The translations under genes were made by a program, and so were the position numbers. The notes under the pieces are model-generated. The model was given only the letters and a program-made list of their open reading frames with translations. It was not told the DNA's origin and did no database searches. DNA of 64,000 nucleotides from Bolinopsis microptera (lineage: Eukaryota > Ctenophora > Tentaculata > Lobata > Bolinopsidae): NCBI RefSeq assembly GCF_026151205.1, contig NC_087082.1, forward strand, positions 14,169,365-14,233,364, read 5' to 3'. Positions 3,001 through 64,000 of this stretch are shown one piece after another; positions within the stretch are counted from its first letter, which is position 1, and every line of letters begins with the position of its first letter.

Positions 3001-4480
3001 TATGCCGATTCTTTCGATAACTTAAGAGATTTTTTTGATCCGGTAGGCTGTGACCCTCCAGCCCCTGATCACGACCGCTACCTCCAATGCAGCTCAAAAA
3101 AAATTTGGGTAGTTTAAAAAGGGCACTTAAACTGAAAAAATTTTTTGCAACAAAGAATTGAAATTAATATTTCAACGATTTTAGGGGGGTTTTAAGGCCC
3201 CCCTAACAGCATTTCAACAACTATTTTTATCTGTTAAACAGCATTTTAATTCGATGTCATGGGGGCATCACTTATCAGTCCCTTTGCTTTGCTCACTTGG
3301 TTTCAAATTGCAAGAGGTCTTTGATTTTATCGGCCATATTACGAATTTTCTTGTAATAAAATTTTGTCCGAGGGAGTCGGGGCCCCAAAATTTTGAAAAC
3401 ACATATTATTATAATCTAAAATTCAAACTGAAAATCTGTTTTTGTTCGAAAAAATTGTGTTAAACCCTAAAATTACAAAACCCTTAAAGGGAAAAAGGTT
3501 TTATTTAAAAAAAAAAATATCAATCCCAATTTTCTTTTTTTTTTGTTAAAAAATTCCCAAAATTTTGGGATCCCCCCAAAATAAAAACAAAAAAAACAAA
3601 GTTTAAAAATTTTCAGTTTTTTTTGGCGCCAAAAAATGGCAAAAAAGGGGGCGTGGCTTGGGGCCGTCCACAAATGGTTTCTTCCTTCTTTTTCCCCTTA
3701 ATTTTTTTCTTTTTATTTTTTTATAAAAAAAACCTTTATCCCCCTTTTTTTTAAAAAAAATAACCCCAAATTTTCTTTTCTTTTTCCCCCCTTTAAAATT
3801 CATTTTTCCAAAAAAATTTACCCTTTTTTTTGGGTGAGTTTCCAAAAAAATTTTTTTCCCCCTTTTGGGTTTTTTGAGTTTTATTTCTTTGGGTTTCCCT
3901 TTTTTTTGGGGTTTCACCCCCCGCAGATTATTTCCATTTTTAAATTATTTACCTATTTTCCCACCAACCCCATTTTAATTGGGACTCCCCCCTTTTCCCA
4001 AAAATTTTCCCTTTTTTTTTTAATTTTTAAGGCCCCCCTTCCCAGAAAAAACCTTATTTTTTGGGGTTTCCCCCGCCAACTTTTAATTTGAGGTTTAAAG
4101 AAAAATTTTTTCTTTTTTTTTTGGGGGCCCTTTTTTTGAGTTGTTTTAATTTTTTGAGTTTTTTTCATTTTTTTCCCCCAAAATTTTATTTAAAACTAAT
4201 TTTTTATCATAGAATTATTATTGAAAACTTTTTATTACCCCAAGATAAATTTTTTTATAATTGGGTTCAAACCGCCCCCAATTTATTTTATTTTTAAATT
4301 AAAAAATATAAATAAGACAAATTTAAATTTTTGGGTATCAAATTTTTCCCACAACAAAAACCCTTAATTTAAAACAATAAAAATTATTCCACCCAAAATT
4401 TTTTTTAAAGGGGACCCCAAACAAAAAACCTCCCAATTTTAAAACCCTTTAATTTAAAAAATTAGGTTTTTCTTTTTTCC
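1..4480. other. Degraded, homopolymer-distorted sequence with no supportable gene
   Basis: Long mono-nucleotide runs of all four bases (for example C-runs near 551, G-runs near 411 and 595, many T and A runs) occur every few tens of bases. No reading frame has domain logic; the open frames are low-complexity Phe/Lys/Pro strings created by the runs. The texture changes gradually to clean sequence by about 6.8 kb, which suggests consensus error at a low-coverage contig end rather than biology. Any exons of the minus-strand Tudor gene lying here would be unreadable. Confidence 0.6.
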
Positions 4481-7400
4481 AAAATTTAAATAATGTTTTT
4501 ATTTATAATTGGGGCTATCACCTTTCCAGAAAGATTTTAAACCCTTTTTATTTAATAATTGGGTTTTAACCCCCTCCGCCGGGGAAAATTTCCCCTTATT
4601 TAAAAATTTGGGTTTTTACTCCCCCTCCAGAAACCAAAAAACCCTTATTTATAATTGAGGTTTACTCACCCCCAAAAACCCCAAACCCCCTTTATTTTTT
4701 AATTGAGGTTACCCCACCTCCGCAAAATTGACCCTTTTTTTAAAATTTTAAGGCACTCCCCTCCAGCAAAACCAAAACCCCTTATTTAAAAATTGAGGTA
4801 CTCACCCCCAAGCGACTTCCCGGGCCCTCTAATTTTAAAAATTTTATTTTTTATTTCACCCCCCAGCAGACAAAAACCCCTTTTTTTAAATAATTTAAAG
4901 GGGTTTACTCCCCCCAAAGCGATTTTGCCCCATTTTTTAAAAATTAACCGCTTATTATTTTCCCCTCCACAACTAAACCCTTATTTAAATTGAGGCTTTT
5001 CACCTCCACCCAAATTTGCCCCCTTTAAATTTATAATTTGAGGTTACCCCCCCTCCACAGCCCCAAAAAAACCCCCTTTATTTTTTAAAAAGGGGGTTTT
5101 TTACTCACCCCCAGAAAGACTAAAACCCTTTATTTAAATTTAAGGTTACCCCCTTTCCACAAAAACCAAAAAACCCTTTTCTTTTTAAATTGGGCTACTC
5201 ACCCCCCACAAAACCCCAAAACCAAAAAAACCCTTTTTTAAAAATTTGAGGAAACCCCACCCCCCCAGCAATTTAACCCCTTTAAAACTTTTTTTTTTAA
5301 TTAAAGGCTTCACCTCCCAGTTTAAACCTTATTTATTTTTGAGGTTACTCACCTCCAGCAGACTTACCCTTATTTATAATTGAGGAAACTCACCCCCACA
5401 AAATTTAAACCCCCCCCCTTTTTTATAATGGGGCTCCCTTCACCCCCCCCACCCAGCCCCAAACCCCCTTTATTTAAAATTTAAGATTTAAATCACCCCC
5501 CGGGCGGGACTCCCCCCTTTTTTATAATTAAGGCCCTTACTCCCCTCCAGCAAAAAAAACCCCCTTTATTTATAAAACCATTTTTAACCCAAACTTGCCC
5601 CATTAAATTTAACCCCCCCAAAACCCCAAAACCCCCCGTGAAATTGGGACTAAACCCCTTAAATTTTTAATTATTCCCAAAACCCCACAACTTGACCCTT
5701 TGGGAAAAAAAATTTAAAACCTACTCACAAAAAAGGACCAACCCTTTTAAACCCCGGACACACCTCCAAAAAAACTTCCCCATTATAATTTGGGGCTACC
5801 CAACCTCCAACACTCTAAACCCCAAAATTTATTTATTATTTAAATCCAAAAAACCTAACAACCCTTTTTGCCTTTCCTTTCCCTTAACTTTCTTTTTTTG
5901 GGAATTTAAATAAACCCCCAAAAGGGAAACCAAAACCCCTTTTTTTAATAATTGGGGGCTAACCTCACCCCAAACCAAATTTAAACCCCTTTTTAAAAAA
6001 ATTTAAAATTAAAGGGCCCCCAAACCTTCCCAGGGCCTAATTTCCTTCCCCTTTTTTATAATAACCCCCCTCACCTCCCAACAAACCCTTAAACCCTTTT
6101 TAAATTTTCTTTTTGGATTTTTTTTTTGGGGTTTCCCCCAAACTCCAAAACTTTATTTTAAAACCCAAAAATAATTGAGGCTCCCTCCACTTCCACAAAA
6201 AAACCCTTTATTTAAAAAAGGAAACACCCCCAAAAACCCCACCAAAAAACCCTTTAAACCCCCCCCTTTTTTTAAATTAATTGATTAAAATTTTTATTTC
6301 AAAAAAACCCCCAACCCCCCAAGACAAACCCAAACCCCCCAAACCCCATTTTAAAAACCCCTCACTCCAAATGCAAAAATTTATAAAAAAAAATTTATAA
6401 TTGGGTTTAAAAAAAAAACCCCACCCCCCCCTTTTCCGAAAACCCCCCCCTTAAATTTTTTTAAAATTGGGGTTTCCCTCACCCCAGCCGAAAAAACCCC
6501 TTATTTATAACTGAGGTTACCCCCCCCAAGCTAAAAACCCTTATTTATAATTGGGGTTACTCCCCTCACAGACTTTACCCTTTATTTAAAATTTGGGGGT
6601 TACTCCCCTTTCCAGCAGACAAAAACCTTTTTTTAATTGAGGCTACCCCCCCCAGAAAGGACCAACCCCTTATTTAAATTGATTTTTACTCACCCCCCAC
6701 CCGACTAACCCTTTTTTTTTAAAATTTTAGGGGTTTTCCTCACCCCCACAGCCCAACCCTTTTAAATTTATAACTGAGGTTACCCTCCGGGCAACCAACA
6801 AACCCTTATTTATAATGAGGTTACTCACCTCCAGCAGAATAAACCCTTATTTATAACTGAGGTTACTCACCTCCAGCAGACTAAACCCTTATTTATAATT
6901 GAGGTTACTTCACCTCCAGCAGGACTAAACTTTATTTATTACTGAGGTTACTCACCTCCAGCACACCTCCAGACTAAACCCTTTTTATAATTTGAGGTTA
7001 CTCACCTCCAGCACGACTAAACCTTATTTATAATTGAGGTTACTCACTCCAGCAGACTAAACCTTTATTATAACTGAGGTTTACTCACCTCCAGCAGACT
7101 AAAACCCTTATTTATAATTGAGGTTACTCACCTCCAGCAGAATAAACCCTTATTTATAACTGAGGTTACTCACCTCCAGCAGACTAAACCCTTATTTATA
7201 ATTGAGGTTACTCACCTCCAGCAGACTAAACCTTTATTTATTACTGAGGTTACTCACCTCCAGCAGACTAAACCCTTATTTATAATTGAGGTTACTCACC
7301 TCCAGCAGAATAAACCCTTATTTATAACTGAGGTTACTCACCTCCAGCAGACTAAACCCTTATTTATAATTGAGGTTACTCACCTCCAGCAGACTTGACC

Positions 7401-8055
7401 CTTATTTATAATTGAGGTTACTCACCTCCAGCAGAATAAACCCTTATTTATAATTGAGGCTAATCACCTCCAGCAGACTAAACCCTTATTTATAATTGAG
7501 GTTACTTACCTCCAGCAGACTAAACCCTTATTTATAATTGAGGCTACTCACCTCCAGCAGACTAAACCCTTATTTATAATTGAGGTTACTCACCTCCAGC
7601 AGACTTAACCCTTATTTATAATTGAGGTTACTCACCTCCAGCAGACTAAACCCTTATTTATAATTGAGGTTACTCACCTCCAGCAGACTAAACCCTTATT
7701 TATAATTGAGGTTACTCACCTCCAGCAGACTAAACCCTTATTTATAATTGAGGTTACTCACCTCCAGCAGACTAAACCCTTATTTATAATTGAGGTTACT
7801 CACCTCCAGCAGACTTGACCCTTATTTATAATTGAGGTTACTCACCTCCAGCAGACTAAACCCTTATTTATAATTGAGGTTACTCACCTCCAGCAGACTA
7901 AACCCTTATTTATAATTGAGGTTACTCACCTCCAGCAGACTAAACCCTTATTTATAATTGAGGTTACTCACCTCCAGCAGACTAAACCCTTATTTATAAT
8001 TGAGGTTACTCACCTCCAGCAGACTAAACCCTTATTTATAATTGAGGCTACTCAC
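4480..8055 (-). repeat. 42-bp minisatellite built from a 5' splice junction
   Basis: A 42-bp unit is repeated with near-perfect fidelity from about 6,838 to 8,055 (roughly 29 copies). It can be traced, increasingly distorted by homopolymer errors, back to about 4,480, so perhaps 80 copies in all. On the minus strand each unit contains TCTGCTGGAG followed by GTGAGT and ends in a TTTAG-like 3' splice motif. The ten exonic bases and the GTGAGT donor are those at the end of the adjoining Tudor exon (8,056-8,212), so the array is a serial duplication of that gene's exon end and donor. It occupies the start of the following intron. Confidence 0.9.
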
Positions 8056-22521
<14,466 letters not shown>

Positions 22522-45594: not shown

Positions 45595-45602
45595 GTTACA
45601 TG

Positions 45603-46214: not shown

Positions 46215-49200
46215 ATGGTTGTAGCCGATGTGGTTCTAGATGAAAGCTGCAACTCTTGTGGAGTTCATCATAACCTGTCCAGAGTATCCACTATCTTACC
46301 TGTTGTCTCGGTTGATGATGCTTTAGAATTCTTGGTACAACTTTGTAGCGAACTAACAGATCAGGAAAAGCACAACGTGTGTAAGTTATGAAGTTTCATT
46401 CAATATCTAACTAATAATAATGATGTTACGTTTTTCTAAATATTTCAACAATTTCAATAAAATTTAGGAAAAAATGAGCGACTGAATATTAAAGGACCAG
46501 TTAACTGAAAAAAAAGTTATCCTCATATTTTGACAGATTGTGACAAATAGCAAACTAAGCAACGAGTCGAAATTCCTAAATCTCTAGCTGCTCTCTAACG
46601 CGTGTAATTAGCGTTTGTATTATTTTGGCGATGACGTCATAAAGTCCCTTGCGCGCACAGAGTAGCTCGTGAGACTGTATTTTACAGGTAGAAAATGGAC
46701 ATAATACAATGTTTCTCCCCCAAATAACTCGAAAAGTAAGTATTTTAGGGTACATGTTGCTTCATAAGTTGTATATAAACATGGCCATTCTGCACAATTT
46801 GCACTCATTCAAAAATCTGTAGGGCCTTCATAGCCCAATTTACGAGATGCCCATATTTTAGCATGATTTCTGGAACCGAAAATCAGTTTTTCGCCAATAA
46901 CTGAAAAAGTAAGCACTTTAAGGCATATGTTTGTTCGTAAGTCATATATTAGTATGCTAATTACGGTTCTTTTGCACCCTGTCTAAAGACTCTATCACGA
47001 TCCTATCGAAAATGGTCTCAGTACCACGCCCAAAATGGTTTTTGGCAAATTTCTCGAAAAGCAAGGATTTTAGGCCATGTGTTGCTCAGTAACTCCTATA
47101 TAAACATGCATATGCCGCTTGGTTTAAGCCTATTTAGAAGTCTCTAAGAGAAGCAAGGGGTCGGTTACGTTGTTGGGTCAATATGGGCGTGGCCCTCCTG
47201 GGTTTTCTCCACGGTCAAAAAATGTCTCCAAACGAAAATCGTTTATTTATAACTTCGGGAAGGTTTGTGCAAAGTTTCGTGAGTATTTGAGCATTTGCAG
47301 GTTCATTTCCATAAATGTCCATAAATGACTGGACTACACAACTTTAGAGTTAACTTTAGAGAAACTCTTAAGTCATTTATCTCAAATTAAGCTGTTAGTG
47401 TCCATGATCAACCTGTGGCGACAATGTTTAACGTGAAATGTAAAAATCAGGAGTAATATAAAAAGTGTATTTTTAGATTAAAGTGCTAGCTCATAGTTTT
47501 AGAATTGTATAGATTAGGTAACGTTGGTCGTTTAGCCATCTAACAATCGATCGTGCCGTAATATATGGCCAGAGAATAATAGGGTCTTGGAAATTCTATA
47601 GTTGTTCAGTGGGTCGATTGACTGAACACGTTTGCACTTGGTATTTAAACTTACCAGTAGTTTATTTATGTTATGTACCGATGATAATGCAATTAGGATA
47701 ACAACTAGGTAAGCCGTAAGTCTAATTCAAAACACACCGCACACCGTACACACCAATCAGTATAACTATTTGGTAGACCGGGTATTTTGGCGGGAATTCT
47801 GTTCCCACGGCACTGTTCTGATAGAAGCTACTTCTACTAATAATCCCAGAGGAACGGCCGTAAAGTAGCCAGACTTCTTGTCTCCTGTACTGGCTGACAC
47901 ATGTGGATTAAAGTTAGAAATTTCGCTATGATATAAATATAATTGCTCTCGGAATTGAACAAACTCCTACTTATCTAGATCCTTTCTAAATTCGTTAGAG
48001 TTTCATGGACTGGGGAAAAATAATCGGTACAGTCTCCCTGCTTGTGTAATTAAGCAATGAAAACAATCCAAAATTATCACATTATATGACATAAGTTGTA
48101 ATAGCAGAAACTTTCTAACCGTACATTCACCCGCCACTGTTCAAGAAATTATGTCACTGTTTAAAATCATGACGTGAGCACTGTACATACAATCAGCTAT
48201 TCCTTTAGTTAGGATGATAGCCAAAACTATAAGGATTTTGGAGAACTAGGGTAATAGTCATAATTCTAAAATTTGAGTGAGTTACACGTGTTTTATTGAC
48301 GATGATAAACATTTGCAATGTATTACGCTATGCAAGCGCGCACTGAGGGACTTTATGACGTCACGACGCCACAGCTTATTATTGCAATAACACGCGTTAC
48401 ACGTACGCTAGAGAATTGGTTCTTTCGGCGATACGATTCTTTACCAGTTTGTCACAGCTGATTTAAATCTTAGCCAAATTGGAGACTACAAATTTTTCAG
48501 TTAACTGGTCCTTTAATCACCAAATTATTCAAAAATATCATTGTGTGATTTAATTCGTTGTGTAAATTTGATTAAAATTCTATCTAATAAGCAAAAAACT
48601 ATATAAATCCTTTATTATGCTGTCTTTTATAAATCCTGATCTGTATTTAGGGAGTATACTGCAGACAGCAGAAAGCAAATACTTCAGACAGTACGTGCCA
48701 AAAGAAAGGGACTCCTTGGCAGGGCACAAGTTACAAATTGTGCTACAGTGGTTTAGATCTGATGAAACTGTATGTTATTTTAATCTTTCCATTCAAATTT
48801 GATATTTTTATCGAGCAGTCTGGAGAAAATGTATGATGGGAAAGAATTACCTCAGCTTTATTGACGTTTCTAAATATGGGTTCTCTCTAGGCAGTAACAA
48901 TAAAACTTAACTATTTTCACGATAAGTAGCAAATAGAACTTCAGCAAACCACGCTATTATCATATAACGTACATAGTAATTTAACTTCACAATTCTCATA
49001 AATGGTACTAATAAAACTCACCTTTATATTCCAGTAATTACTTTATTTAAACAAAATTAGGCATACAAAACTTCTCAATATCGTCACATTATTAGTGGCT
49101 GCCTGTGCAAATCCAGGAATTTAAACAATATATTATTTTCAGAAAGAGCCCCAGAGGTTGACCTTTATTCTAAAAGCTCTGTCTTATGTTGAGCAGAAAG

Positions 49201-52200
49201 TTCTGTACCTACTCAGAGATTTCCTTACACCATACAGTAAGTTATAAAATAATCAAATGCATAGATTAAAAATGATAGATTAAAAATGATAATTTTAAAG
49301 TATGAGACGGATGTTTACCTTGTTGAGTTTGTCAGAGCATCTTGTGGAACTATATCACTATAGTACTATAATGTAGATCCACTATGTGCCAAGCCCACTG
49401 ATCAAAGTGAGAATCCTAGTTGAGCGGTAATATTATAAAAAGAGCTGTTCTTTATTGGAGCATCTCCAATTTCCATGCTTTGCAGCTTGTTCAAATATAC
49501 CGTTAAAGTATTGATACTTGGTAATACAATACCCAATACCCTAACAAAACCAACCAGTTGCCATGGAGACTCACCCTGTCCCCAACAACGCTAATTTATA
49601 TTTGTGGGGTATTTGTGGAAATCTGGCAATCAATAAAACTGCTCTTCCGTCAAGTAGATAGTTGGTAAAATACCACGTGGGCTGATTTGTTAATTTCGAG
49701 AAAAACGTTTGGTTAAATTTATGTACGTAACTTTTTAGTGAATTGTTAGTTATCTGTCGCTCTTAGTAAGAGCCATTATTTACGAGGGAGCATGCTCATT
49801 TATTCTGACATCATATTTATAATTAGAAATCCACTACACAATTTACTGCCTAAAATGTAATGACACTAGCTTCACTGCTAATATCTATTGATGTAAGCTA
49901 ATTTTAGATGCTAATCAATGTAAAGGGTTTAAGTTAAATAGATAAATGGTGGGATAGAGGGGCACAATGTTCTGCGATCAAATTAACTTCCTTTTGGTCA
50001 GATCGTGTGATACATGTTAACGCATTTTGTGTTACCATGGCAACACACTTTGTAATATTACTGTGTAGCAGGCTGCAGGAACACAGGGATTTATAACACA
50101 CGCGTCTTTAATACTGCATACTGTAACCATGGCATTTTTTGGGAGCTTCATTAAGTTTAATTGCCGCATAGCTAATGTAAGAATGAAGCTAATGATAAAA
50201 CAACACTATCACTACCCAAACAAGGCACAAGTGAGCGTTTATTTCAGTATAATTGAAACTTGAGGCAATGAAGACGTGGGCAATGTAAGCTTAATATTTG
50301 TAATCAGTTTGTACTTTGACACTGTTTCTTTAAATACTCAACAAGTCTTTAATAATATCTAACTACAGGTGATCTGAAGAGTGAAGACGACTTTAAACCA
50401 GATGCTACTCACTGTCCCTGGTAAGTTCAGATGCTACTCACTGTCCCTGGTAAGTTCAGATGCTACTCACTGTCCCTAGTAAGTTCAGATGCTACTCACT
50501 GTCCCTGGTAAGTTCAGATGCTACTCACTGTCCCTGGTAAGTTCAGATGTTACTCACTGTCCCTGGTAAGTTCAGATGCTACTCACTGTCCCTGGTAAGT
50601 TCAGATGCTACTCACTGTCCCTGGTAAGTTCAGATGCTACTCACTGTCCCTGGTAAGTACAGATGCTACTCACTGTCCCTGGTAAGTTCAGATGTTACTC
50701 ACTGTCCCTGGTAAGTACAGATGCTACTCACTGTCCCTGGTAAGTTCAGATGTTACTCACTGTCCCTGGTAAGTTCAGATGCTACTCACTGTCCCTGGTA
50801 AGTTCAGATGCTACTCACTGTCCCTGGTAAGTTCAGATGCTACTCACTGTCCCTGGTAAGTTCAGATGCTACTCACTGTCCCTGGTAAGTTTTCAGATGC
50901 TACTCACTGTCCCTAGTAAGTTCAGATGCTACTCACTGTCCCTGGTAAGTTCAGATGCTACTCACTGTCCCTGGTAAGTTCAGATGTTACTCACTGTCCC
51001 TGGTAAGTTCAGATGCTACTCACTGTCCCTGGTAAGTTCAGATGCTACTCACTGTCCCTGGTAAGTTCAGATGTTACTCACTGTCCCTGGTAAGTTCAGA
51101 TGCTACTCACTGTCCCTGGTAAGTTCAGATGCTACTCACTGTCCCTGGTAAGTTCAGATGCTACTCACTGTCCCTGGTAAGTTCAGATGCTACTCACTGT
51201 CCCTGGTAAGTTCAGATGCTACTCACTGTCCCTGGTAAGTTCAGATGCTACTCACTGTCCCTGGTAAGTTCAGATGCTACTCACTGTCCCTGGTAAGTTC
51301 AGATGCTACTCACTGTCCCTGGTAAGTTCAGATGCTACTCACTGTCCCTGGTAAGTTCAGATGCTACTCACTGTCCCTGGTAAGTTCAGATGCTACTCAC
51401 TGTCCCTGGTAAGTTCAGATGCTACTCACTGTCCCTGGTAAGTTCAGATGCTACTCACTGTCCCTGGAAAGTTCAGATGCTACTCACTGTCCCTGGTTAG
51501 TTTACAACGCGGTGAGGGTGGGAGGGGAAGGTTTCAAAGGAAGAAACAATAAGGTTTTGAGGGAGGTTCATGTTTAAACAGTGCAATGTTTACAGGTCGG
51601 GACAATGGCCGTGTTTCTCGGAGAGAAGTGGGTGTGTGGACTTCATATCCCGGCTACCAGTTACCGTCTCTAAACTCATTCTCTGTTTTGTGGGGGTCAA
51701 CAACATTTGGGGTGCTAGGCTCGTTTCCAAACGCTGGTTAGTTATAAGAAAATGTAGATAAGAAAATGTAGATAAGATAATGTAGATATCAGATAAGTTA
51801 TCAGATACGAAAATTTAGATAATCAGTTTTCTAGCTGTTCTATTCTAAAATTAGTTGCTCGGACGAGACAACAGTAACTGACTGACCAGTGACCCCCCCC
51901 CCCCCCCCCCCCCCCCCCGACTGACTAACCCCACAAATCTGCAGGTACATGATAATAAAGGAAGTGTTGAGGGAGCACAAACAGTTTCAAGCGCACGTGT
52001 TCCGTTGCAGAGCGCTGCGCCCCGCCATGCGCAACGTCAACCCCACATTTGCTAACAAAGTGGCACTGTGTTTCACATCCGGGGTGTGCACCACTGGTCA
52101 CCCTTATGTCAGGTCTCTTCTTTTCCTTTTTTTACACAATTACTGTGCAATAAGTAGGGTTTAATTAGTTAGTTTTCACTTTTAATAAGTTAGATTATTG

Positions 52201-55200
52201 ATATTTGCTCTGTCATTTTGATATGATAAATATGTAGTTTAACAGATAAACTAGCAGTGAGGAAGAGCCGGGATCTACTAAGGTCATTCTAGAAGAAAGG
52301 AATGTGTACTGCGCGGCTTACCACGTGCATAATCTCTATAGATTCAAAGGTAATAACGATTACCATGAGACTTGAATTTTACCAATAATTGATGTGATCG
52401 TTTCATTATATTAGTACCACAGAGACTTTTTTTAAATAAGATAGTTGGTTGAATTATTAATTAATTATTAAATATTATATTAAAATTATATTAAAACTGA
52501 TTTAGGATATTCCAGATCCGCACAGACAGTTGCATTATTGTCGAGGCAAATATTTTGCTATTGGTTCAAATGATAGACGAATACACATAAGGTCCATGGA
52601 AACGGGTGAGCAGTAAATACCCAGTTCGTTTTTCGTTAATATCGTTAATTAAATGATTAGCTAATTATAAGAATGATTGCAGTATTCCCTCCTTATCTCG
52701 GATAACCTTATCTCAGGTAAGCTACACAAGACAATAATGGGGCATGCAGGTAGTATACAATCACTGTTGCTTATAGAGAAACTCAGAATAGTAATTTCAG
52801 GTTAGTAGTATAGAGTACAGCTATATATAGATATAACCATCAACCAAAGTCATTGTGTTTTGTGAATTATAATAACTATTAAGCGTACCAGACATTGCCA
52901 TTGAATAGTCAAACATTATGGTTACTGTGGTTACTGTGGTTACTATGGTTACTAAACACAATGGTACGGATATTGTTACAATACTTGTCACCAGGAAGTT
53001 ACGATCTGACGATCAGGGCGTGGTCAATAGAAACAGGGGCCTACCTGCGGTTGTGGAGGGGACACCGGGGAACTATATCCTGTCTAGATCACAACGACAC
53101 GTCAGTTACACTAATTATCAGTTTATTTAATAGTACAATCTACGTGATTACGTTTAATTACCTAACCATGTAATCAACTAATCGACTAATTAATATCGCT
53201 CTCAGTCTGCTGATATCTGGGGCTCGTGATAGTATGGTAAAGGTGTGGTATCTAATTAATATCGTTCTCAGTCTGCTGATATCTGGGGCTCGAGATAGTA
53301 TGGTAAAGGTGTGGTATCTAATTAATATCGTTCTCAGTCTGCTGATATCTGGGGCTCGTGATAGTATGGTAAAGGTCTGGTATCTGAAGAAGGCGATGAT
53401 AAAGCGCACTTTTCACCATCCCCGTCCCATTATATCAGTAAGGTTGCTCGGAGACAGAGCTGCTGTTGGTACAGAGTCACATCACTTATACTTGTGGGAC
53501 ATTAACCAGGGGACCAAATTAAAGGTATGTGGGACATTAACCAGGGGACCAAATTAAAGGTATGTGGGACATTAACCAGGGGACCAAATTAAAGGTATGT
53601 GGGACATTAACCAGGGGACCAAATTAAAGGTATGTGGGACATTAACCAGGGGACCAAATTAAAGGTATGTGGGACATTAACCAGGGGACCAAATTAAAGG
53701 TATGTGGGACATTAACCAGGGGACCAAATTAAAGGTGTGTGGAACATTAACCAGGGGACCAAATTAAAGGTATGTGGGACATTAACCAGGGGACCAAATT
53801 AAAGGTATGTGGGACATTAACCAGGGGACCAAATTAAAGGTATGTGGGACATTAACCAGGGGACAAAATTAAAGGTATGTGGGACATTAACCAGGGGACC
53901 AAATTAAAGGTATGTGGGACATTAACCAGGGGACTAAATTAAAGGTATGTGGGACATTAACCAGGGGACCAAATTAAAGGTATGTGGGACATTAACTAGG
54001 GGACCAAATTAAAGGTATGTGGGACATTAACCAGGGGACCAAATTAAAGGTATGTGGGACATTAACCAGGGGACCAAATTAAAGGTATGTGGGACATTAA
54101 CCAGGGGACCAAATTAAAGGTATGTGGGACATTAACCAACGGACCAAATTAAAGGTGGGTAAATTGGGAAAAAGGGATCCTTTTATCTATGTATATTGAG
54201 GGTCGTTCCCTTCTAGCTTTCGTCACGAGTGAGCTTTCGATTTTTTAAATGCAGAGTTTCTTGGGAGCTGGAAACCGACTTAGTTTGCAATGACAAGCCT
54301 AAGCTGTGCTGAAGAATTACGTTTAGATGAGCGAATAAAGATGTACAAAGTAGAGGACTTTTGAAAGATCCTAATATCCCCCAGGTTTTCAGCACTGTTG
54401 GTGCTGTATACTGTGTGAATATAACTCCACATTTCATAATGGGAGGAGCACACAATGTCATGTACATTTGGAACATGATATCTTTGAAGGAGGCCCCAAT
54501 GTTCACCCTTCCTCACCCAGGGTTTGTTATTTTTACTTTCTCTTTTCAGTTTTACTGCAGCTAAGGAAACAATTGGTTAAATTCATTATGTGTGGGATGT
54601 ATAAGATACTGTCCGTTTATAAAGGGTCAGTCACCCGTCACATACTATACAACTTAGACTCCCCTCCCCCAACTTTACACACAGCTATTGTGTGTATTCC
54701 TAGCCTTCTCTCCGTTACGATGGCTAACGACGATCTTATTAAATACCGATTCAAACCGATTGTCACATCAAAATATCTAAAACCATGTCAATCAGCGGTA
54801 CCTTGACTGGAGGCGGCGTCCTCCGAACCTGAATTCTATGATTATCCCGTGATCTATTTTGTACGCTGCGCGCGTCTTAAACCACGTTTTCTGCTTGCAG
54901 GCGTGTGTTATCAGTGCAGTATTGCTACGTGCGGTGTGTGACTGGGTGTGACGACGGAAAGATAAGAGTTTGGAGTTTGGTATCTGGAGACTGTATCAAG
55001 GTTATACGAGCCAATGCAAAGGGAGATCCCATCACAGCTCTGTTTGTAGATATTGATAGGTCAGTGACTGTTAACTATAAGATCCCTGTTACCACTATTA
55101 CTACCTCTATTACTACTGCTTTTAGTTAGCAGACAAGCTTTCGCTCATTAATTTGTTACTCCATCGCATCGTAAAAAATTGAAAAAATTGAAAAGGAGCG

Positions 55201-58200
55201 AAGACAGGTTGCTCTTTGTTCATATCATTGTTAAGGACCCATGTAAATTTCAAAAAATCAAGTTCCCACCTATTTCTCAACGGATTATCTGACAGGTTGG
55301 TGGTTAACACAACAAGTACTGTTATATCCCTCAACTTCATATCTACTACCTGGGATTACTGCTCTCAGAGGTTCTCCGAGGTAAGTTATCGTATCTTGTT
55401 ACGTATTCGTGTGTAAATTTGTAGTGATCCCGGGATCAATACAAATTTACACAAGAATACATTGCAACCATGCGACTCATAAAGAATATTCCAATCCGGA
55501 TTTTACATATCTTGTTACCATGGTTACTCAGTTACTTATATCGTTACCATCGTTATTGCTTATCTTGTAACCATGGTTAGTTATCCTCTTATTAACATGC
55601 GAACGTCTTGCATTGTTACCATGACAGCTGTGTGATCAAATCTTCAGCAAGAGGTGGCCAATACTTTAATCAATAAATTAGCTATATAATATAAATGTTA
55701 TAGTAATTATCTAGCTATGTGTCTACTGTACAGCACATTTCATAAAACTGCTGTCAGTTTTTTACCATTGCTAAGCAGTATTGTAGATTCTTTTATTCGT
55801 AAAATGTCATCTATGAACACAAGATAACAGCTGCAGATTACGTTTCATATTTTCAACCCTGACCAATTGCCCAGGAGTAATATTAAAGGGGGCAATATAA
55901 TCTAATGAACTATAACTAGATCTAATGATCTATAACTAGATAAAATAAGAACTTGTTTAGGAGAAGAGGCAGAGCCAAGAGGGGCCGGGAGATAACAAGA
56001 GGACGCTAAAAAGAAGATGTAAATCAGCTGTTCAGCTTAGAACACAGTCAGTAATAAGTCATTAGACAGTAGACACACTTTTAATTTATCATTACAAGCT
56101 GCACTAATTTTATACCTTACTATATTATCAATTCAGCCCACCATACTTAGTCTATCACATCTCATAGTACTGTCTTGCATAATATCACATTTTTGCTCAA
56201 TTCAGCACATATTTATTGCACTCTAAACGTCTGTCGGCCAATAGAGAAGTGTTTCTAGATCACGTGTTTTAGTAGGGACCAATGAGAAACACACAATTTC
56301 AGCATCAAGAACATGACGACAAATCTTTCTGGTCAGGGAGCAGTGAGGTACAGGCAATATGTTTTTATTTTATTCACTTTTGTTCGAGTTTTCTATAGAT
56401 GTGGATACTGGCGGGGAGGTGATCATTGTTTGTTTACGTTTTAGTGGCGCCTCCATTAAGCAGGTCAATACAAAATTTGCATCACATCTTCAACCTGCTT
56501 AATAGAGGCGCCACTAAAACGTAAACAAACAATGATCACCTCCCCGCCAGTATCCACATCTATTAGGTCCAGCATTATTATTCTTATTTGACCCTCTCAA
56601 ATTTCAGTAATAATGCAGTTTCTTCCCTTTCAAATTGATGCACAGCAAACTGGAAACTATAATTTACCCCACTTTCACCTTATGGCAGAGAACTATCAGA
56701 CTTCCAGAAGACTGGCGTAATGACAGGAACAGCTCCCGAACAATTCAGAACAGCTGTAGATACTAAAAGTGAGGTAGTGGAACAATACAGAACAACAACT
56801 GTGAATCCTAAAAGTGAGGAACCCACCGCCCCACGTGCACCGCCTCCGTCTCCCAGAGAACCTGAAAACATCAAGGTTAACTCTTCCTCCTACTTACTGC
56901 TTACACAGTTACACCGATCTGCTCCTTTTATTTTATTTTAACAAGGCTCACCCCGTGGCTATTCGCCTGATCACTTCGTTCGCCAGAGTGATGCAACGGC
57001 TTCCCGCCGTACTCACCAATTTGCAAAATTTAAAATAGGATTCACGACTCTGCTCTAATACACTTTTGTAGAAACTACCACCTAAATGCCTCCACTTTCA
57101 GACTACAGTTGTAGAAACGGCAACGAAGCAGATGTTGTTTGATGATGTATTCCAGAGGGGTCCCATCTCATACTGTGGTCTCATTAGTCGACCTAACACA
57201 GAGATACTCCACAGCACATCCTCAGGTAAAGCACTGGCAGAGCATTACCAGCAGAGCATCACCAGTAAACACTGGTAGTGCATTGGTAGTTACTCAGCTT
57301 AGTTTAAGTTCAGTAAAATCTTACCTAACTTGCTAGTCTCTTGCTCGTTTCTCTCCAGTGCATTGTTATTGTAGATCAAGAAGCTCGAAAAGAGCGCCGG
57401 GCATAGGGATAGGCGCGCTTGGTTGAGTACAATCATCTCCTACCGTTACAAATATGTGTTGTTATATTCCAGGGTAGTAACCACATAAAACACAGGTGGG
57501 AGAGAAGGCTGGAACACCACACAGTGCAAGACTACTCCTCCTAGAACTGCTACCATGGTAACAGGTCCTACTAGAGGACAGTACAATTCTGAGCAGCTCA
57601 AGAAGATGAAGTCCAAGAGACCAAGTTCAGCTCCGTTTGTCAGTGCTAGTCTCAGTGTCCACGGACACCTGCCTTCCTTCGCTACACGGCGTCCTAACAC
57701 TGCCTCTCTCATTCAACACAGAGTCAATGTAAGTGTAGAGTTAATGGCAAAATGTATCGTCTTCACTAAATCACTGACCAAGGATTTTAAATATTGTTAC
57801 AGAGGAGCCCTCGGGGTACGCATCATTTGATGTATTTCGAATCACTCCCTATGATCTGGTTTCATATCATCATTAATTAACTGACTCATTGGTCCCTGGG
57901 CAAATAGTCCATCCAACCTGTCAAATTTGTGTTCAGAAATTTTCATATTTGAAAATGGGACAGAAATTGGAAAAGCTTTCTGCGAGCTTCCTCCGACAGA
58001 AATAAAACTTCCAGCACCTCAATTGTGTCATATGCAGATGCCATCTATAGTTGACCAACTAATTGGTTGTGGGTGAGAAATTCAGTCAAAACTGTAAAAT
58101 TTCCGTCCTGGAAATTTCATCTTCAAAAACTGAGAATGGGACAATATTATTTTTCAATTTTTAAAATAATCACCCTAGTAAAACTAGTAAAACTTCAGGT

Positions 58201-58396
58201 AATGCCCGCAGAGCGGTGGCAGAGCACGTGGCAGAGGTTGCTATCGGACATTCCCGAGAAGACCCCTGAGGGGGTGATTAGGGTACAACAAAACATACCT
58301 CAACCAAACATTCCTCAACCAAACTCATCCCACTCTAACAACTACAAGGGGCCGGTGCGGAGACCGAAAACAGCAACTGCTAGAATCCGCTATTGA
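46215..58396 (+). CDS. FBXW10: F-box and WD40 repeat protein, FBXW10 ortholog (18 exons, complete)
   Basis: Exons: 46,215-46,380; 48,651-48,769; 49,143-49,236; 50,369-50,420; 51,596-51,736; 51,945-52,112; 52,258-52,349; 52,506-52,605; 52,717-52,800; 52,995-53,100; 53,338-53,524; 54,385-54,521; 54,901-55,059; 55,296-55,380; 56,689-56,875; 57,102-57,225; 57,496-57,728; 58,199-58,396. About 810 aa. N-terminal Cys motif (CNSCGVHHNLSRVS), F-box (DFISRLPVTVSKLIL...LVSKRW), a VNPTFANKV and EERNVYCAAYHV linker typical of FBXW10, then WD repeats (GHAGSIQSL, ISGSYDLTIRAW, GHRGTISCL, ARDSMVKVW, DDGKIRVW). F-box proteins bring substrates to SCF ubiquitin ligases; WD repeats bind the substrate. Phases agree except at 52,349/52,506 and 55,380/56,689. 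Three exon-intron boundaries carry minisatellites made of the boundary itself. A poly(A) signal candidate lies at 58,949. Confidence 0.88.
46493..48512. mobile_element. 2.0-kb TTAA-flanked transposon (Kolobok/piggyBac-like ends) in FBXW10 intron 1
   Basis: AGGACCAGTTAACTGAAAAA at the left is mirrored by TTTTTCAGTTAACTGGTCCT at the right, flanked by TTAA on both sides (46,489-46,492 and 48,513-48,516). The inverted similarity extends patchily inward (TGACGTCATAAAGTCCCTTGCGCGC at about 46,631 against GCGCGCACTGAGGGACTTTATGACGTCA at about 48,335). Inside are three diverged copies of a roughly 165-bp unit (about 46,710, 46,870 and 47,035), each with AACTCGAAAAGTAAG-like sequence and GTTGCTCAGTAACTCCTATA-like sequence. 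No transposase frame; non-autonomous. TTAA duplications are used by piggyBac and Kolobok; the AGG start favours Kolobok. Confidence 0.88.
50398..51498 (+). repeat. 29-bp minisatellite made of the FBXW10 exon 4 donor (about 38 copies)
   Basis: The unit CAGATGCTACTCACTGTCCC + TGGTAAGTT starts within exon 4 (exonic end ...CACTGTCCCTG) and includes the strong donor TG|GTAAGT. Copies are nearly identical from the exon to 51,497. Each unit therefore reads as a 19-nt exon-like piece followed by a 10-nt GTAAGTTCAG, giving about 38 consecutive consensus 5' splice sites at the start of intron 4. Confidence 0.95.
51596..51736 (+). CDS. FBXW10: FBXW10 F-box exon
   Basis: Encodes SGQWPCFSERSGCVDF, then ISRLPVTVSKLILCFVGVNN and IWGARLVSKRW. 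The LP-x5-L-x-L-CF ... VSKRW pattern is the F-box, which binds SKP1. It joins the preceding exon through a split Trp codon (TG|G), which requires use of the first, not a decoy, copy of the donor in the 29-bp array. A C-run of about 23 bases lies in the next intron (51,893-51,918). Confidence 0.88.
52506..55380 (+). CDS. FBXW10: FBXW10 WD40 propeller exons
   Basis: Seven exons encode successive WD repeats: YFAIGSNDRRIHIRSMETG; GHAGSIQSLLLIEKLRIVIS; GSYDLTIRAWSIETGAYL with GHRGTISCLDH; LLISGARDSMVKVWYL; HHLYLWDINQGTKLK; IMGGAHNVMYIWNM; GCDDGKIRVWSLVSGDCIKV; and RLVVNTTSTVISLNF. The order and spacing match FBXW10, including the C-terminal 'DGKIRxxxxxxGxCxKVxxANxxGDP' repeat. The entry exon at 52,506 is in a frame one base off from the preceding exon as drawn. 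Confidence 0.85.
53190..53403 (+). repeat. 66-bp triplication of the FBXW10 exon 11 acceptor and exon start
   Basis: Three copies start near 53,206, 53,272 and 53,338. Each holds a TTCTCAG acceptor, the exonic codons LLISGARDSMVKVWYL and an intron-like AATTAATATCG spacer. 66 is a multiple of three and the frame stays open through all copies, so splicing to the first or second acceptor would add one or two extra WD strands in frame. Confidence 0.93.
53491..54155 (+). repeat. 35-bp minisatellite made of the FBXW10 exon 11 donor (about 18 copies)
   Basis: The unit GTATGTGGGACATTAACC + AGGGGACCAAATTAAAG begins as the last 29 exonic bases (WDINQGTKLK) plus the donor AAG|GTATGT and repeats to about 54,155 with few substitutions. 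It presents about 18 tandem copies of the 5' splice site at the start of intron 11. Confidence 0.95.
54156..54384. other. Remainder of FBXW10 intron 11
   Basis: Ordinary AT-rich intron after the 35-bp array. Ends in CCCCCAG. Confidence 0.5.
56395..56563. repeat. 71-bp near-perfect inverted repeat (hairpin) in FBXW10 intron 14
   Basis: The arms 56,395-56,465 and 56,493-56,563 match with one mismatch, separated by a 27-base loop. They contain ATACTGGCGGGGAGGTGATC and GTTTTAGTGGCGCCTC. Transcribed, this would be a long stable hairpin. It is not bounded by an obvious target duplication. Confidence 0.93.
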
Positions 58397-59402
58397 GGAA
58401 GACAGTGGAGCAGGCTTGTTTACACTTCATCAAATTCAACCCTCTGACCTCTACCCAGATCTGAAGATAGGGCTGCACGGCCAGTCATGAGTGTGAGTGT
58501 TAACGATATGCAAGAGAGCAAATAAGATAAGGAGAAAAGCTTTTGTGATCATCTTAATGGGCCATCTCGACCACTACACCGTACACTGACAACACTGAAG
58601 CTTCAAGTTCAAATTGGCGGACACTATCCCCATAAAATTAAAAAATGGAACCCGTATACAAATTTCCATAAAAATGTTGGATTGTGAACAAACAACAGTG
58701 AATCGTTTGCAGCCACTTTTGGGGTGCCATTGTAAAAGCTTTCTACAATACTCATGTGCAAGTTTCATGAATTTAAGACAGAGGTATACACCTTTTTACT
58801 TTAATACTGATTCAGTATTTGATGGTCTATTTTGTATTTGAGTATTACAGATTATATTCTTTATTACAGATTATATTCTTTATTTTTACTTTATAAGATA
58901 GATAAATATATATTCTTTTAATTTTAACAACGCTTTTTAATTAGTTGTAATAAATACTAGATACTTCAGCATGCAGTCAGTCCACCAATATTATATCCAA
59001 ACCAAACTCTTTATTCATATTGATCCTTTTGCCCTTGGTGAAACGATACCATTAAAAAATTAAACGAGATTTTACAAATATCTGAATGATAAGAAGAAAT
59101 AAATACAGAATGAGAAATAATAGATAGTCAAACTATAGCGGAATTACAAAGACTCCGACATACAGATAACATATTAATACTAGCACACGTGAGTCAAGCT
59201 GAACATTTGGATTTAAATCAATACTAATAGGAGATACTCTTTGTAATATCAATACTAGTGTTATCAAATCTAATTTCTGGAATCTAAAAAATAACTCTTT
59301 CAATTTAGTCTTAACTAAAACTGTTGAGTCTGCAATGTTACCATGAAAATCACAAATCAACATTATTCTGTTAACACTGTGACACTCTGTCAGGATGTAC
59401 AA
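58397..59402. other. Intergenic region between two convergent genes
   Basis: Contains the presumed 3' UTR of FBXW10, with a poly(A) signal candidate AATAAA at 58,949-58,954. A small tandem ATTACAGATTATATTCTTTATT occurs at 58,845-58,885. No gene seen. Confidence 0.5.
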
Positions 59403-59412
59403 TTTATTATCT

Positions 59413-62400
59413 TCATCTGTATTGGTTATACATATTTGGGTTCGGCATATTAGCGTTCGGTATGTTAGCGTTCGGCATGTTTCCGAGTTGCATCTGAGGA
59501 TAAAGGTATCAAAATTCCAGCCAATTGTATACTTCTAATTATGCTTCGCCTGTTTTATAATCTTCTTAACAATCCAAATTCCAATTCACCTTGAAGAAAA
59601 TAAGGAACACCTGATTATAAGGAACTCTGTGAAAATAAGCCTACCTGATTATAAGGAACTCTGTGAAAATAGGCCTACCTGATTATAAGGAACTCTCAGA
59701 CCTGTGAAAATAGGCCTACCTGATTATAAGGAACTCTGTGAAGAGATGCCTGGTGAGGTTGAGCTATGCCCGGATTTGGTCCCAACGTCGGTCGAACTTG
59801 TCTGAAAATAGTTAGGTGTAATATTAATATTTGATAAATAAACTCTGTCCAAACCGATCAGAAATGTTTGCTTTACTATAATAAAAGTTAATGGTACGAC
59901 ATACACCTGCATCTATTTAACTTTTTAATGCTAAACTGGTTTGCTGAATGGTAAATTCCTGTGATACCTAGTTTCTAATTAATTAGATAATTAATTAGTT
60001 AATTGTTAACCTGGGTGCAGTTTGAGGATTCATGTTCGGAGGAAGGGATATCTGTAACACTTGAGCTGGTCGCTGCACTGGCAGAAATCCACCAGGGTCA
60101 ACATAACCTGGGGTAAAGCTCAGTAGTAACAGAGTAACAGCAAATCTCTCTCAGTGTATATCGTTTCAAGCATGGCATTTCCTTAATTTATGATAGTAGA
60201 ATTTCTTTTGAAACTCTTCTTTCTTGTTTATCCAAATCCAAATTCTAATAACTACTAAAAATAACAAATACTTCTTGGGATCTGTTGCACGCTGGGATAT
60301 TGGTAACCTCTGGGGTACTGTTGAGGCATCATCATCGCTGAGGGAATGTTTCTCATAAATCATCTATTTTTAATTCCGATAAACTTTTTAAAAATCTGGC
60401 CGATCCAATGCGCTTAAAGATGGTTTCTTAGAGGTTGGTGAGGTCAATTTGTGTTCAATCAGCGGAGGTGCAAAATGAATAACATCGATTAGATCACAAA
60501 AAGAGATACGTGCGCGCTGACCTCCATCTCCAAACACGCCGCGCGTTACGCATCTTCCTCAGATCGAGTGTAACCGATTTGTGAAATGAGGTCATCTACG
60601 AATGAAAGAAAAAAGAATCTTCTCAAACCTGCATTTGGTCGGGGACTGTTCATCGAATTATCAATCCGTCCCTAAAGAAGGGGAACAGAAGTTTAGAACG
60701 AGTAGATCAATATGATGGTAAGTTCAGCTTGTTTGTAACTTGAGTACAAATAACAGGTACATCTCTCAGAATAACGTCAGAATTTAGACATTACAGAAAT
60801 TGAAGACTCACAGCAGCACTTGGACCCCCCCCCCCCCCCCCCACTTACAGCAGAACTGACTGGTCTGAGTTGTTGTGGTTGTGCCATGTGCATTATCTGA
60901 CCGCGTATAATGCCACCAGGCTGTGGCATTATAGGGGATTGTTGCTGTGTTCCTTGACCCATCTGCATCATGGGTACCGTCATACGCTGCAAAATAAACC
61001 CCTTCATTGAAAACACCGATTGATCATTGATGGCCCAAAAGCGATTATTCATGAAAAAGAATAAAGCACAAAAAAATGTCACAGAAGGTCGTCAGGACTG
61101 GTCGTATTGAGTCCTTAACAACATAAAAACCCTGACTAGAACTGTCCTTCTTCGAGTTCACATGTACATGACAGGATTTCTAGCATGTTATATTTTATAA
61201 ACATGTTATATTTTATAAACATGTTAAACTCTATAAACGTGTTATATTTTATAAACATGTTAAACTCTATAAACATGTTAAACTCTATAAACACGTTAAA
61301 CTCTATTTAAACATGTTAAACTCTATAAACACGTTAAACTCTATTTAAACATGTTAAACTCTATAAACATGTTAAACTCTATAAACATGTTAAACTCTAT
61401 AAACATGTTATAAATGATATAAGGATATAGTAACCTGTTGGGTAGGGCGTTGTGCAGGGTTTATAGGAGGTACTATGTAACCGGCGTTATAGGCTCCTCT
61501 AATTCCCTTACTCTGGGGTAAAACACTTTATCAAATACGATATATACATATATATTTTACTCTCTTACTCTATAATATTATATCCACTATATAAGTCATT
61601 TGTTAACTTATTGACTTAACCCCAAAAAAACTGAAGTGTGCATAATTTTAGTCCTGCAAACATTTGAGCGTGCTAATTTCTACCGTAACCTATACTACTA
61701 AGAACTGGGTGAATCGAAGTAAAAACAATAAGTTAAAGTAGTTAAATAAAGTAGTTAAATAAAGTAGTTAAATAAAGTAGTAAATAAGTAAAAGTGTTTA
61801 TTAACCGGGTCGTGAGGAAGCCTGTTAACATGAGGCACACTCTTGGGAGACTGTATAGAGGTAGCAGGTAGTATATTAGGAGGCTGGGAGGACGGACTAC
61901 TCATACTGTGAACAACAGGTAGATTAGGAGAGATAGGAGTCATAACCCCGCTACCACTTGGAGCGGGGGTTTGGGGGGCTGCTGGGCTGCCTCCTGGAGG
62001 GGCTTGCTTTGAGTTGGTCATAAAGGGGGCTGGTTTGAGGTGAGGCATAGTCTGGAGTTGGGGGCCGGCTGAACTGACCTGGTAAATAGGTTAGGTTACG
62101 TGCCGTGAACTTGCATTTATGTGTTGCAGTATGTATACTTCAGCAAAATCCTTGATTACCACTTTTTTACCACTTTTTTCCACATTGATTCTCCGCAAAC
62201 AAGTCCTTTTATGAATATCGTAGAAGGTTATAAATTGGACCAGTATGTTAAAAAATAATGGAGAACTTGGCCCTTGGAAAACATTTTATATTATAAAAAA
62301 ATCAATTAATTGATTAATTAAATAATCAAGATATTTTGGATTTTTAAAATGTTTGAAACAATTTGTGAAAATTTTGAATTATCAATTAATTAAATAATCC

Positions 62401-63556
62401 TCACTCCATAACCACTCAATCACATAATACAATTCCAGTTCTGCTCTCCCACAAGCTACTCAACAAATAATTATATCAAGCTCAAGTTGATAGGCGTGAG
62501 ACTGATTATATTTCCGAGAATTTCAATGGACTAAATCTACTCTCCCAGAAGTTCACAGGGCAATCTCTTGTTAAGAGATTGCCATTGAATTATACACTTT
62601 CTAACTTTGAGCAGTTCTTTCTAAATTAGGTAACACTTTCCAGTAACAACATGTGCTCGTCAAACTGTGAAACGATAACACCCGGCGCGGCCTGCAATTA
62701 AAGTTAGCAAACCCATTTGACGGTGCTTTGTTATAATCTACCGGGTTATACAATGCAACCTAAAGTAACTTATAATATGATCTTATAATGAACCATTAAC
62801 ATGTCTACAGTATGAACGCTACAATTATGAATAATAATTGCCAAAAATATACTACAATCTTGCTCGAGTTTTATGAATACCAAATCTGAGACTCAGTAAA
62901 AACAACAAATACTTGGTTCTTATACATGACCCCTATAATAATATAAACAATTGTCAGGTAAATTAGTGACTTACTGAGCGGTTTAAGCGTTCTTTACAGA
63001 GATCAAGTATTTCCTTAGCATAGTTAGGTGGCTTAGCGTCAGTAGATATCTTCATTTTACTCAGCTTACCGTCCACCGAGCTGTCTTTTGAACTGAAAGG
63101 TGCTTTTTTAGATGGAATACTGGTTACCGGACAATAATACTGGTTACTGGACTATAATACTGGTTACCGGACAATAATACTGGTTACTGGACAATAATTC
63201 ACCGTGCGAATATAATGATGGAATACTGGTTACCGGACAATAATTCACCGCGCGAATATAAAGATATAAATGAATTATCGGATATTATTGAAATAATGCA
63301 GAAGGCGCGAGTGGTAATAATATCGGATATCTATAAATATATTATATCTGATTTATATACGGTCTAATGAAATGACTGACCTGTGGAACTCAGGCGTATC
63401 CCTCTTCCCGTACTGCAGAACCAGGCTCATCTCAGCTACAATATCAGAGAGAACGTTAATGTGGTCCGACTTGTTGCAGTGTGTTATTAGTCGTCTTACT
63501 GCCATGTTGTTGAGCTGATTCTGTGTTAGGTGGATGTCACTCTTTACTTCAAATAC
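59413..63556 (-). CDS. Gln/Pro/Met-rich protein of unknown identity (5' end beyond the window)
   Basis: Exons in transcription order: 63,381-63,556; 62,975-63,092; 61,806-62,078; 61,435-61,512; 60,849-60,986; about 60,282-60,350; 60,011-60,107; 59,720-59,801; 59,413-59,493 (stop TGA). Phases close at nearly every junction; only the 5' border of the 60.3-kb exon is unsettled. The first exon is helical (VRRLITHCNKSDHINVLSDI then AEMSLVLQYGKRDTPEF), the second ends AKEILDLCKERLNRS. The rest is low-complexity: PHLKPAPFMTNSKQAPPGG, MMQMGQGTQQQSPIMPQPGG, MMMPQQYPRGYQYPSVQQ, and a terminus with NMPNANIPNANMPNP and MYNQYR. Such composition is usual in nuclear cofactors or mRNA-binding proteins, an inference. 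I do not recognise the family. An AATAAA lies 5 nt after the stop (59,403-59,408). Confidence 0.75.
59605..59745 (-). repeat. 34-bp repeat carrying both splice sites of an exon end (four copies)
   Basis: On the minus strand each unit is TTTTCACAG|AGTTCCTTATAATCAG|GTAGGC: a 16-nt exon-like piece with an acceptor and a donor. The copy nearest 59,720 is the true exon end (codons for RVPYNQ and its donor). The other three lie in the following intron; one has a 7-base insertion. Confidence 0.9.
60107..60848. other. Introns around the 60.3-kb exon
   Basis: A run of 18 C at about 60,829-60,842 lies just outside the donor of exon 60,849-60,986. Nothing else recognised. Confidence 0.4.
61185..61415. 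repeat. 17-bp AT-rich minisatellite (about 13 copies)
   Basis: The unit ATAAACATGTTAAACTCT and variants (TATATTTT, ACGTT). It lies in the intron whose 5' splice site is at 61,434, beginning some 20 bp from it. Confidence 0.85.
61735..61805 (-). repeat. Short TTAAATAAAGTAG repeat abutting a donor
   Basis: About four copies of a 13-bp unit end within 25 bp of the donor at 61,805 (CCCG|GTTAAT, minus strand). Confidence 0.75.
62079..62974. other. Intron, nothing recognised
   Basis: AT-rich intron. A short inverted pair CAATCTCTTGTTAAGAGATTG (62,561-62,581) forms a small hairpin. No coding potential. Confidence 0.45.
63115..63255. repeat. AATACTGGTTACCGGACAAT repeat (about five copies)
   Basis: A 20-bp unit with variants; the last two units are joined to a duplicated TTCACCG(T/C)GCGAATATAA. 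It begins about 25 bp from the acceptor of exon 62,975-63,092. Confidence 0.8.
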
Positions 63557-64000
63557 CTGGTAAAGTAAAGTAAAGTAAAGTAAAGTAAAATTTATGACAT
63601 CACATCATCACACATGTCTACAAAATATCATCGCACTGTGTGAAAAAATATATAATAAATATTTCCCCACCAACATTAATTCTTTATCAAATACAATATT
63701 TAAAAACAATTTTATAATAAATAATAATAATAAAATTTGGTAGCTTAAACACAAACTCTAAGCCCAGTGGATAAACCACAAAACTTATGCTCTATTGTGT
63801 GAAACAAAGATACTAGATCAAGATAACTATCAAGGAGTGTATGCATAGGACATAAAAAGTTTTGGAACGAAGATGACATGCTTATGAAGCGAGCTAACAG
63901 TCTAAATGCTAATAAGTTCAAAAAGATCATGACATTAGGTTGCATCCTAAACAGTTTAAGCAAATAACATAAAGTTATATTGTCAATTAATCGCTCATGC
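63557..64000. other. Intron or flank upstream of the last visible exon
   Basis: (TAAAG)n at 63,561-63,587 forms the polypyrimidine tract (minus strand CTTTA repeats) directly against the acceptor of exon 63,381-63,556. Beyond it is AT-rich sequence with an (ATA)n tract at 63,717-63,734. A 72-codon minus-strand open frame at 63,745-63,963 shows no domain. Confidence 0.5.

Follow-up and report, generated by a model that had tools for sequence, protein, structure and literature searches.

Minisatellite-like duplications of intron-exon boundaries, known as mirages, have been described in the amphioxus genes Adh3, BflGb6 and BflGb9 (both globins) and TnC, with imperfect mirages in PGBD5, and they are reported to be without effect on splicing (PMC3087553; PMC3902484). 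Also described are a human minisatellite with multiple donors, reported in 1995, and the potato RdRp case of intron gain by tandem genomic duplication (PMC4974935). Here we analyze arrays of this kind in the ctenophore Bolinopsis microptera, in a stretch of 64,000 nucleotides (the window; contig NC_087082.1, G000:C11:14169365-14233364) that holds three host genes separated by transposon-like open reading frames (ORFs). The assembly comprises 264.65 Mb, and its 13 chromosome-size contigs sum to 258.07 Mb (97.5 percent). At six junctions of these genes a splice site is repeated in tandem together with adjoining exon bases, and we read the arrays, with a probability of roughly 0.6, as mirage-type minisatellites, in which a junction segment was duplicated in tandem and arrays pile up on or beside junctions. 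A limited literature search covering mirages, boundary minisatellites and ctenophore tandem repeats or splice sites found no report from a ctenophore.

Array coordinates were obtained with Tandem Repeats Finder, and exon bases and splice sites were assigned by reading the sequence. In this way all six loci for which the original prediction had claimed a splice site plus exon bases within the repeat unit were located, and every unit of the six arrays has this composition. Four arrays repeat a donor (units of 29, 35, 42 and 34 bp), two repeat an acceptor (66 and 58 bp), and the six units are all different. Three of the arrays lie on the plus strand in a gene encoding an F-box/WD40 protein. The 29 bp donor array (50399..51502) has 38 units that join the exon end CAGATGCTACTCACTGTCCCTG to GTAAGTT, with GTAAGT intact in 36 of them, and its first donor copy is the one used by exon 4 (50369..50420) in our 561-aa gene model. 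Further downstream, a WD40 exon (53338..53524) is bracketed by two arrays, one of acceptors on its 5′ side and one of donors on its 3′ side. The acceptor array (53186..53385) consists of three 66 bp units, each TTCTCAG plus 46 exon bases, which are in frame and correspond to 22 codons. The donor array (53493..54156) repeats the exon end ...TTAAAG plus GTATGT in 19 units of 35 bp, of which 17 are AAGGTATGT and 18 retain GTATGT or GTGTGT. Judged by its intact motif, each repeat in both donor arrays of this gene is a potential donor. In these two arrays, the only ones examined for it, the terminal units diverge and the interior units are near-identical; the edge units escape homogenisation, as in concerted evolution.

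The other three arrays are on the minus strand. A 58 bp acceptor array of 2.6 units (10893..11041) was identified in a Tudor/MYND gene by Tandem Repeats Finder and reading, and a 34 bp donor array of 3.7 units, ...TTATAATCAG followed by GTAGGC, spans 59609..59742. The 42 bp donor array (6800..8075) has about 30 units with CTGGAG followed by GTGAGT, and decayed copies extend from about 4480. The donor that seeds it belongs to an exon at 8056..8212, which is predicted from an open frame and an exon finder and has no Pfam match. Exon-model support is firm for three of the six arrays and weaker for the other three. The window sequence at 1-6800 is degraded, probably through poor consensus, with 40-66 percent of bases at 1-8000 in runs of at least three equal bases as opposed to 13-28 percent elsewhere in the window, and the 42 bp array fades gradually into this degraded stretch.

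Other arrays lie against splice sites rather than across them. Duplicated acceptors, expected by the original prediction at about 13.0 and 13.5 kb, were both found by reading on the minus strand. The first (12960..13175) includes the exon start and has a GGGACA x22 array (13010-13143) between its two copies, and the second (13470..13824) belongs to a Tudor-gene exon and adjoins a C-rich minisatellite at 13603-13824. A 14 bp array (51744..51788, plus strand) is docked 7 bp past a donor, and an AT-rich array (14202..14250, minus strand) is docked 15 bp ahead of the acceptor at 14186. The further claim that several arrays start about 30 bp or less from a splice site also held for the predicted introns of the window, where 12 of 23 intronic arrays do so and 5.7 were expected (P 0.002).

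The F-box/WD40 gene (46215..58393, plus strand) allows the consequences of the extra splice sites to be read from its coding frame. Its first 14 exons run in one frame to 55380, the remainder having been assigned by reading, and when spliced they give a single 561-aa open frame with an F-box match (E 3.9e-5) and WD40 matches. Against WD40 structures the product matched Tako8 best, with FBXW7 among the next ones. Given the last acceptor copy, this structure match has no gap at the junction of the 66 bp array, and use of an earlier acceptor would insert 22 or 44 residues in frame. Reading past the first donor copy of the 29 bp array leads to an immediate stop, TGG TAA, as seen in the translations of copies 4, 7 and 10, and in the 35 bp array a stop follows within the second unit (ORF end 53554). 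Any later donor would therefore add a stop, which would make the decoy donors costly if used. Together, the frame and the domain fit of the model suggest that regular splicing may be left undisturbed in this gene. The long arrays of decoy splice sites that had been anticipated are present as intact motifs, and their use in splicing remains putative.

To place the window arrays against chance, we considered arrays with a period of at least 15 in the three gene spans and gave their units random positions in the collapsed sequence, using 62 splice-site cores that had been assigned by reading. Six of 20 arrays contained a junction, compared with 1.18 expected (simulated P 0.0004; Poisson P 0.0014); these six were counted by reading, and among the 62 sites those at 11871 and 11847 are doubtful.

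We then turned to 19 loci of 10 kb outside the window, 13 at a fixed coordinate and 6 at seeded random places, and four myosin loci, one of them shortened, that were picked by a PF00063 match before their arrays were viewed. Arrays make up about 11 percent of the sequence of the 19 loci. Loci shuffled in 60-base blocks gave 3-6 arrays versus 143 in the real sequence, so base composition does not create them. A codon-likelihood ORF screen was too weak to call exons, and an exon finder with exon chaining was used instead. The docking sample comprised nine locus-strands from eight loci (L003 plus, L005 both strands, L006, L007 minus, L008, L013, L014 and L020) and the myosin loci L022-L025. The chains of L016, L017 and L021, taken to be long single ORFs or transposons, were omitted, and so were the doubtful chains of L003 minus, L007 plus, L016 minus, L019 minus and L025 plus. 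The chain of L019 plus was also set aside, even though one of its arrays sits 12 bp away from a donor. No three-exon chain was obtained in L004, L009-L012, L015 and L018. Exons were called by an array-blind script, and arrays near exons had already been seen in some of the sample loci before the docking test.

This procedure gave 53 arrays wholly inside 110 predicted introns; 4 more cross an intron end and were excluded. Seventeen of the 53 come to 20 bp or less from one of the intron ends, whereas uniform placement would give 7.3 (P 1.2e-4). The excess was also seen when the test was restricted to better-scoring exons (10 of 26, 4.3 expected, P 0.002), when the four myosin loci were taken by themselves (6 of 20, 2.7 expected, P 0.024), and when one array was drawn from each of 40 introns (13.5, 6.2 expected, median P 0.001). 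Docking is tightest ahead of the acceptor, where nine of the 53 arrays finish with 10-16 bp left to the AG, against an expectation of 1.22 (reached in 0 of 50,000 simulations), and none finishes at 17-38 bp (3.83 expected). L014 supplies 6 of the 17 docked arrays, and with this locus removed the 10-16 bp class is 6 of 44 (0.87 expected, P 2e-4). In the printed sequences the usual layout is an array, a short pyrimidine-rich stretch with the AG, and the exon, or else a donor and then the array. A hand-picked set of introns outside the window gave the same docking, with 12 of 25 arrays no more than 20 bp away and an expectation of 4.2, and we do not rely on it, preferring the array-blind run, because some of these introns had been noticed for their arrays.

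Three features of the sampled loci are recorded here in their own right. Acceptor-docked arrays at L014 2907-6392 and L024 4316-4352 hold, by eye, CTAAT- or TTAAT-like words, possibly multiple branch points. A predicted intron of 1.9 kb (L025 1250-3140) is nearly all 8 bp repeat (240 units) and stops 13 bp before a myosin exon. At L022 2713-2905 and 2965-3187, two tandem exons correspond to almost the same region of the myosin head (positions 105-167 and 102-167) and are perhaps mutually exclusive alternatives.

Tandem splice motifs were also counted over the whole genome as patterns, irrespective of whether they lie at real exons, a pair being two copies with 15-45 bases between them (as stated for CAGGTAAGT). 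The motif CAGGTAAGT occurs singly 2462 times and its reversed control 1212 times, and the corresponding pairs number 496 and 2. For MAGGTRAGT there are 10382 single copies (8307 reversed) and 1797 tandem pairs, compared with 87 for the reversed, 124 for the permuted and 326 for the reversed-permuted motif, where the permuted motifs have pair counts only. This amounts to 0.17 pairs per single copy versus 0.01 for the reversed motif. Pairs were likewise more frequent than in the control for AAGGTGAGT (227 vs 49) and for the acceptor-like YTTYCAGG (1345 vs 320, pair counts alone). As distinct loci, contig C1 has at least 12 for the donor motifs versus 4 reversed and 3 permuted (P 0.009), the reversed control having 18 loci in the whole genome, and the full lists of C1 up to 17.65 Mb give 8 versus 4 and 1 (P 0.04). 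Over C1-C9, CAGGTAAGT has 12 loci versus at most 2 (P 0.05). These P values apply the reversed motif's ratio of single copies to both controls. The units of the 12 printed CAGGTAAGT loci differ from each other, which argues that such arrays arose many times. When the 29 bp array was compared with the genome, it matched itself and one locus at 68 percent, counts that are lower bounds as the search skips simple repeats. That locus (C1:1291 kb; L002 1434-2001) is a donor-motif array of 14 bp x40 in which CTG is joined to GTAAGTTCAGA, near a 65 bp array (L002 1-1271). Elsewhere, G000:C8:17904441-17904966 is a satellite with a period of 11 bp whose CAGGTAAGTAA units are essentially donor motifs only.

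A number of results weigh against reading the arrays as duplicated junctions. The P value for the window is post hoc, since the window was picked because of its arrays, and exons outside it are mostly ab initio predictions. In predicted genes outside the window, none of 41 units holds a splice core, although 2.28 were expected. By eye there are about two such arrays, one over an acceptor in L008 (4688-4772), where two predictions leave the exon start ambiguous (4758 or 4776), and one over a donor in L025 (651-694); a donor also lies in the L004 array (6322-7322) and in the 14 bp array of L006 (7435-7477), both outside the 41 counted. A motif test that dispenses with gene models, scoring the best donor and acceptor per unit of 93 arrays from the 19 loci relative to random non-array segments of equal length, found no excess of donors scoring at least 7 (11 of 93, 8.2 expected) or of acceptors (10 of 93, 13.3 expected). 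Long arrays swell the pair counts, hence the count of distinct loci, from which the largest control (326 pairs) is absent. On the 5′ side docking is weak, with 6 of 53 arrays starting 1-12 bp past a donor (2.09 expected, P 0.016) and 4 of 44 when L014 is left out (P 0.056), and the bins of 10-16, 17-38 and 1-12 bp were picked after the data had been seen. Docked arrays have no residual homology to the junction, their mean identity being 0.297 at 25 docked edges and 0.313 at 118 others, and the histories of docked arrays and of junction-containing ones may therefore differ.

The claim that arrays meet junctions beyond chance is therefore borne out in part: the window count, the docking and the tandem donor motifs speak for it, and the units outside the window speak against it. 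Enrichment elsewhere in the genome, whose lack the original prediction had named as refuting, is likewise mixed, being present as docking and absent from the motif test and from the 41 units. Arrays that contain a junction are no commoner than expected in this small outside sample, and the window looks like a hot spot for them.

We document here repeated junctions, intact decoy motifs, a coding cost of decoy donors and an association of arrays with splice sites in other predicted genes. To explain them we propose that a segment of 10-70 bp straddling or touching an exon-intron junction would be duplicated in tandem, with the exon-proximal copy remaining the working splice site. Unequal exchange or slippage would add further copies toward the intron, and these would then be homogenised. 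The abundance of arrays in this genome points to a probably high rate of tandem duplication, and selection would purge duplications that break exons or the splice cores of about 10-15 bases, leaving arrays to pile up at junctions. Because the null already confines arrays to introns, selection against exonic arrays alone cannot yield docking. What remains is a higher rate of duplication in DNA near junctions or a longer survival of arrays close to exons. The sharp peak at 10-16 bp leans slightly toward junction-directed duplication, and the lack of a mechanistic signature leans toward longer survival near exons.

A familiar form of the survival idea holds that duplications occur anywhere in introns and that deletions near an exon also take the splice site and are purged, with the result that arrays near junctions last longer. 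Purifying selection would suffice for this, and arrays that start just beyond the splice cores on both sides fit it, so we consider it quite possible, if short of an even chance. It predicts a gradual fall-off with distance, which the 0 of 53 arrays at 17-38 bp contradict on small numbers, and taken alone it leaves units with exon bases unexplained. The converse idea, that splice sites and the DNA adjoining them are intrinsically prone to tandem duplication, for example through R-loops, transcription stalled at splicing or nucleosome boundaries at exon edges, accommodates both the tight docking with its empty 17-38 bp zone and the ratio of tandem pairs to single donor motifs. We place it on the unlikely side, as splice motifs were not enriched in the sampled arrays, docked arrays keep no junction homology, and RNA folding of two array segments found them no more stable than shuffled sequences. 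Its broader form, in which splice junctions would be hot spots of tandem duplication and a process tied to transcription or splicing would seed arrays in very many introns, is similarly doubtful; if true, introns would expand at their ends and accumulate decoys of donors, acceptors and branch points alike.

That chance alone produced a striking window, in an intron-dense genome so full of minisatellites that some units include junctions, would agree with the negative motif test on 93 arrays and with the near-expected number of junction-containing units outside the window. It is unlikely given that docking recurs in independent genes, including the four myosin loci alone, and that donor pairs stand far above three controls. 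It is very unlikely that the arrays are young introns gained by duplication of AGGT-bearing segments: the units do carry AG/GT-like junctions, and mirages were proposed as an intron source in amphioxus globins (PMC3087553), but the acceptors of the two F-box/WD40 introns with donor arrays, as read, are not copies of the array unit. Consensus errors that inflated or created the arrays are highly improbable, because the clear degradation of positions 1-6800 (homopolymer fraction of 0.40-0.66 over 1-8000 and 0.13-0.28 elsewhere) touches the 42 bp array and the sequence around the remaining five is clean, and because the F-box/WD40 gene keeps its frame with its acceptor array and both of its donor arrays.

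The remaining two host genes are both on the minus strand. The MYND and Tudor gene (about 8-16 kb, 8000..16000) was recognized from Pfam matches, with PF00567 (Tudor) above its cut-off in two exons and PF01753 (MYND) under its cut-off (E 0.0014), and these matches fall in exons other than the array-bearing ones. A Q/P-rich gene with no family assigned spans 59400..63604, and the pieces tried had no Pfam match. Rfam gave no match over the window. Several minisatellites are probably in coding frame (10713-10793, 14981-15080 and 59431-59478, with units of 27, 21 and 15 bp respectively), encoding for example PPLSKPSGP and MPNAN. By reading only, several long retroelement-like ORFs lie in 17600-42100, of reverse-transcriptase-like character and with one 1452-aa gag-pol-like ORF at 37721-42079. 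A large inverted repeat with arms of about 70 bases was read at about 56400-56560, inside the F-box/WD40 gene.

By the marks of a mirage, the arrays of the window are probably mirages: their units span a boundary, donor and acceptor are both duplicated, and edge units, in the two arrays examined, are not homogenised. In amphioxus, mirages likewise have a boundary-spanning unit, affect both 5′ and 3′ boundaries and keep AG/GT signals in many copies, and their units, from tens to about 160 bases, are comparable in length to those found here (PMC3087553; PMC3902484). The present case differs in lying in another phylum, in having up to 38 units and arrays at both ends of one exon, and in coming with a genome-wide count and the docking of other arrays beside splice sites, all of it known from DNA alone. 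The human donor minisatellite, reportedly that of 6-16/IFI6 described by Turri, Cuin and Porter, resembles our donor arrays in extending an exon end and differs in being a single locus. Intron gain by tandem genomic duplication, reportedly also treated in Hellsten 2011 and Zhuo 2007, shares a duplication touching splice signals; it creates a new intron, whereas the arrays described here multiply junctions that already exist. Introners, in which copies of one element are dispersed and tied to splice sites, share with our arrays a repeated sequence at such sites and differ in that the six window arrays have six different units. Dispersed introner-like copies were not found for the 29 bp array, the only one tested, in a search that skips simple repeats. 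Mirages in a ctenophore would mean that they are not a peculiarity of lancelets. The choice of a splice site among dozens of identical decoys provides a test, set up by nature, of exon-edge recognition, and a genome this rich in arrays makes the origin of mirages, a proposed source of new introns, directly testable.

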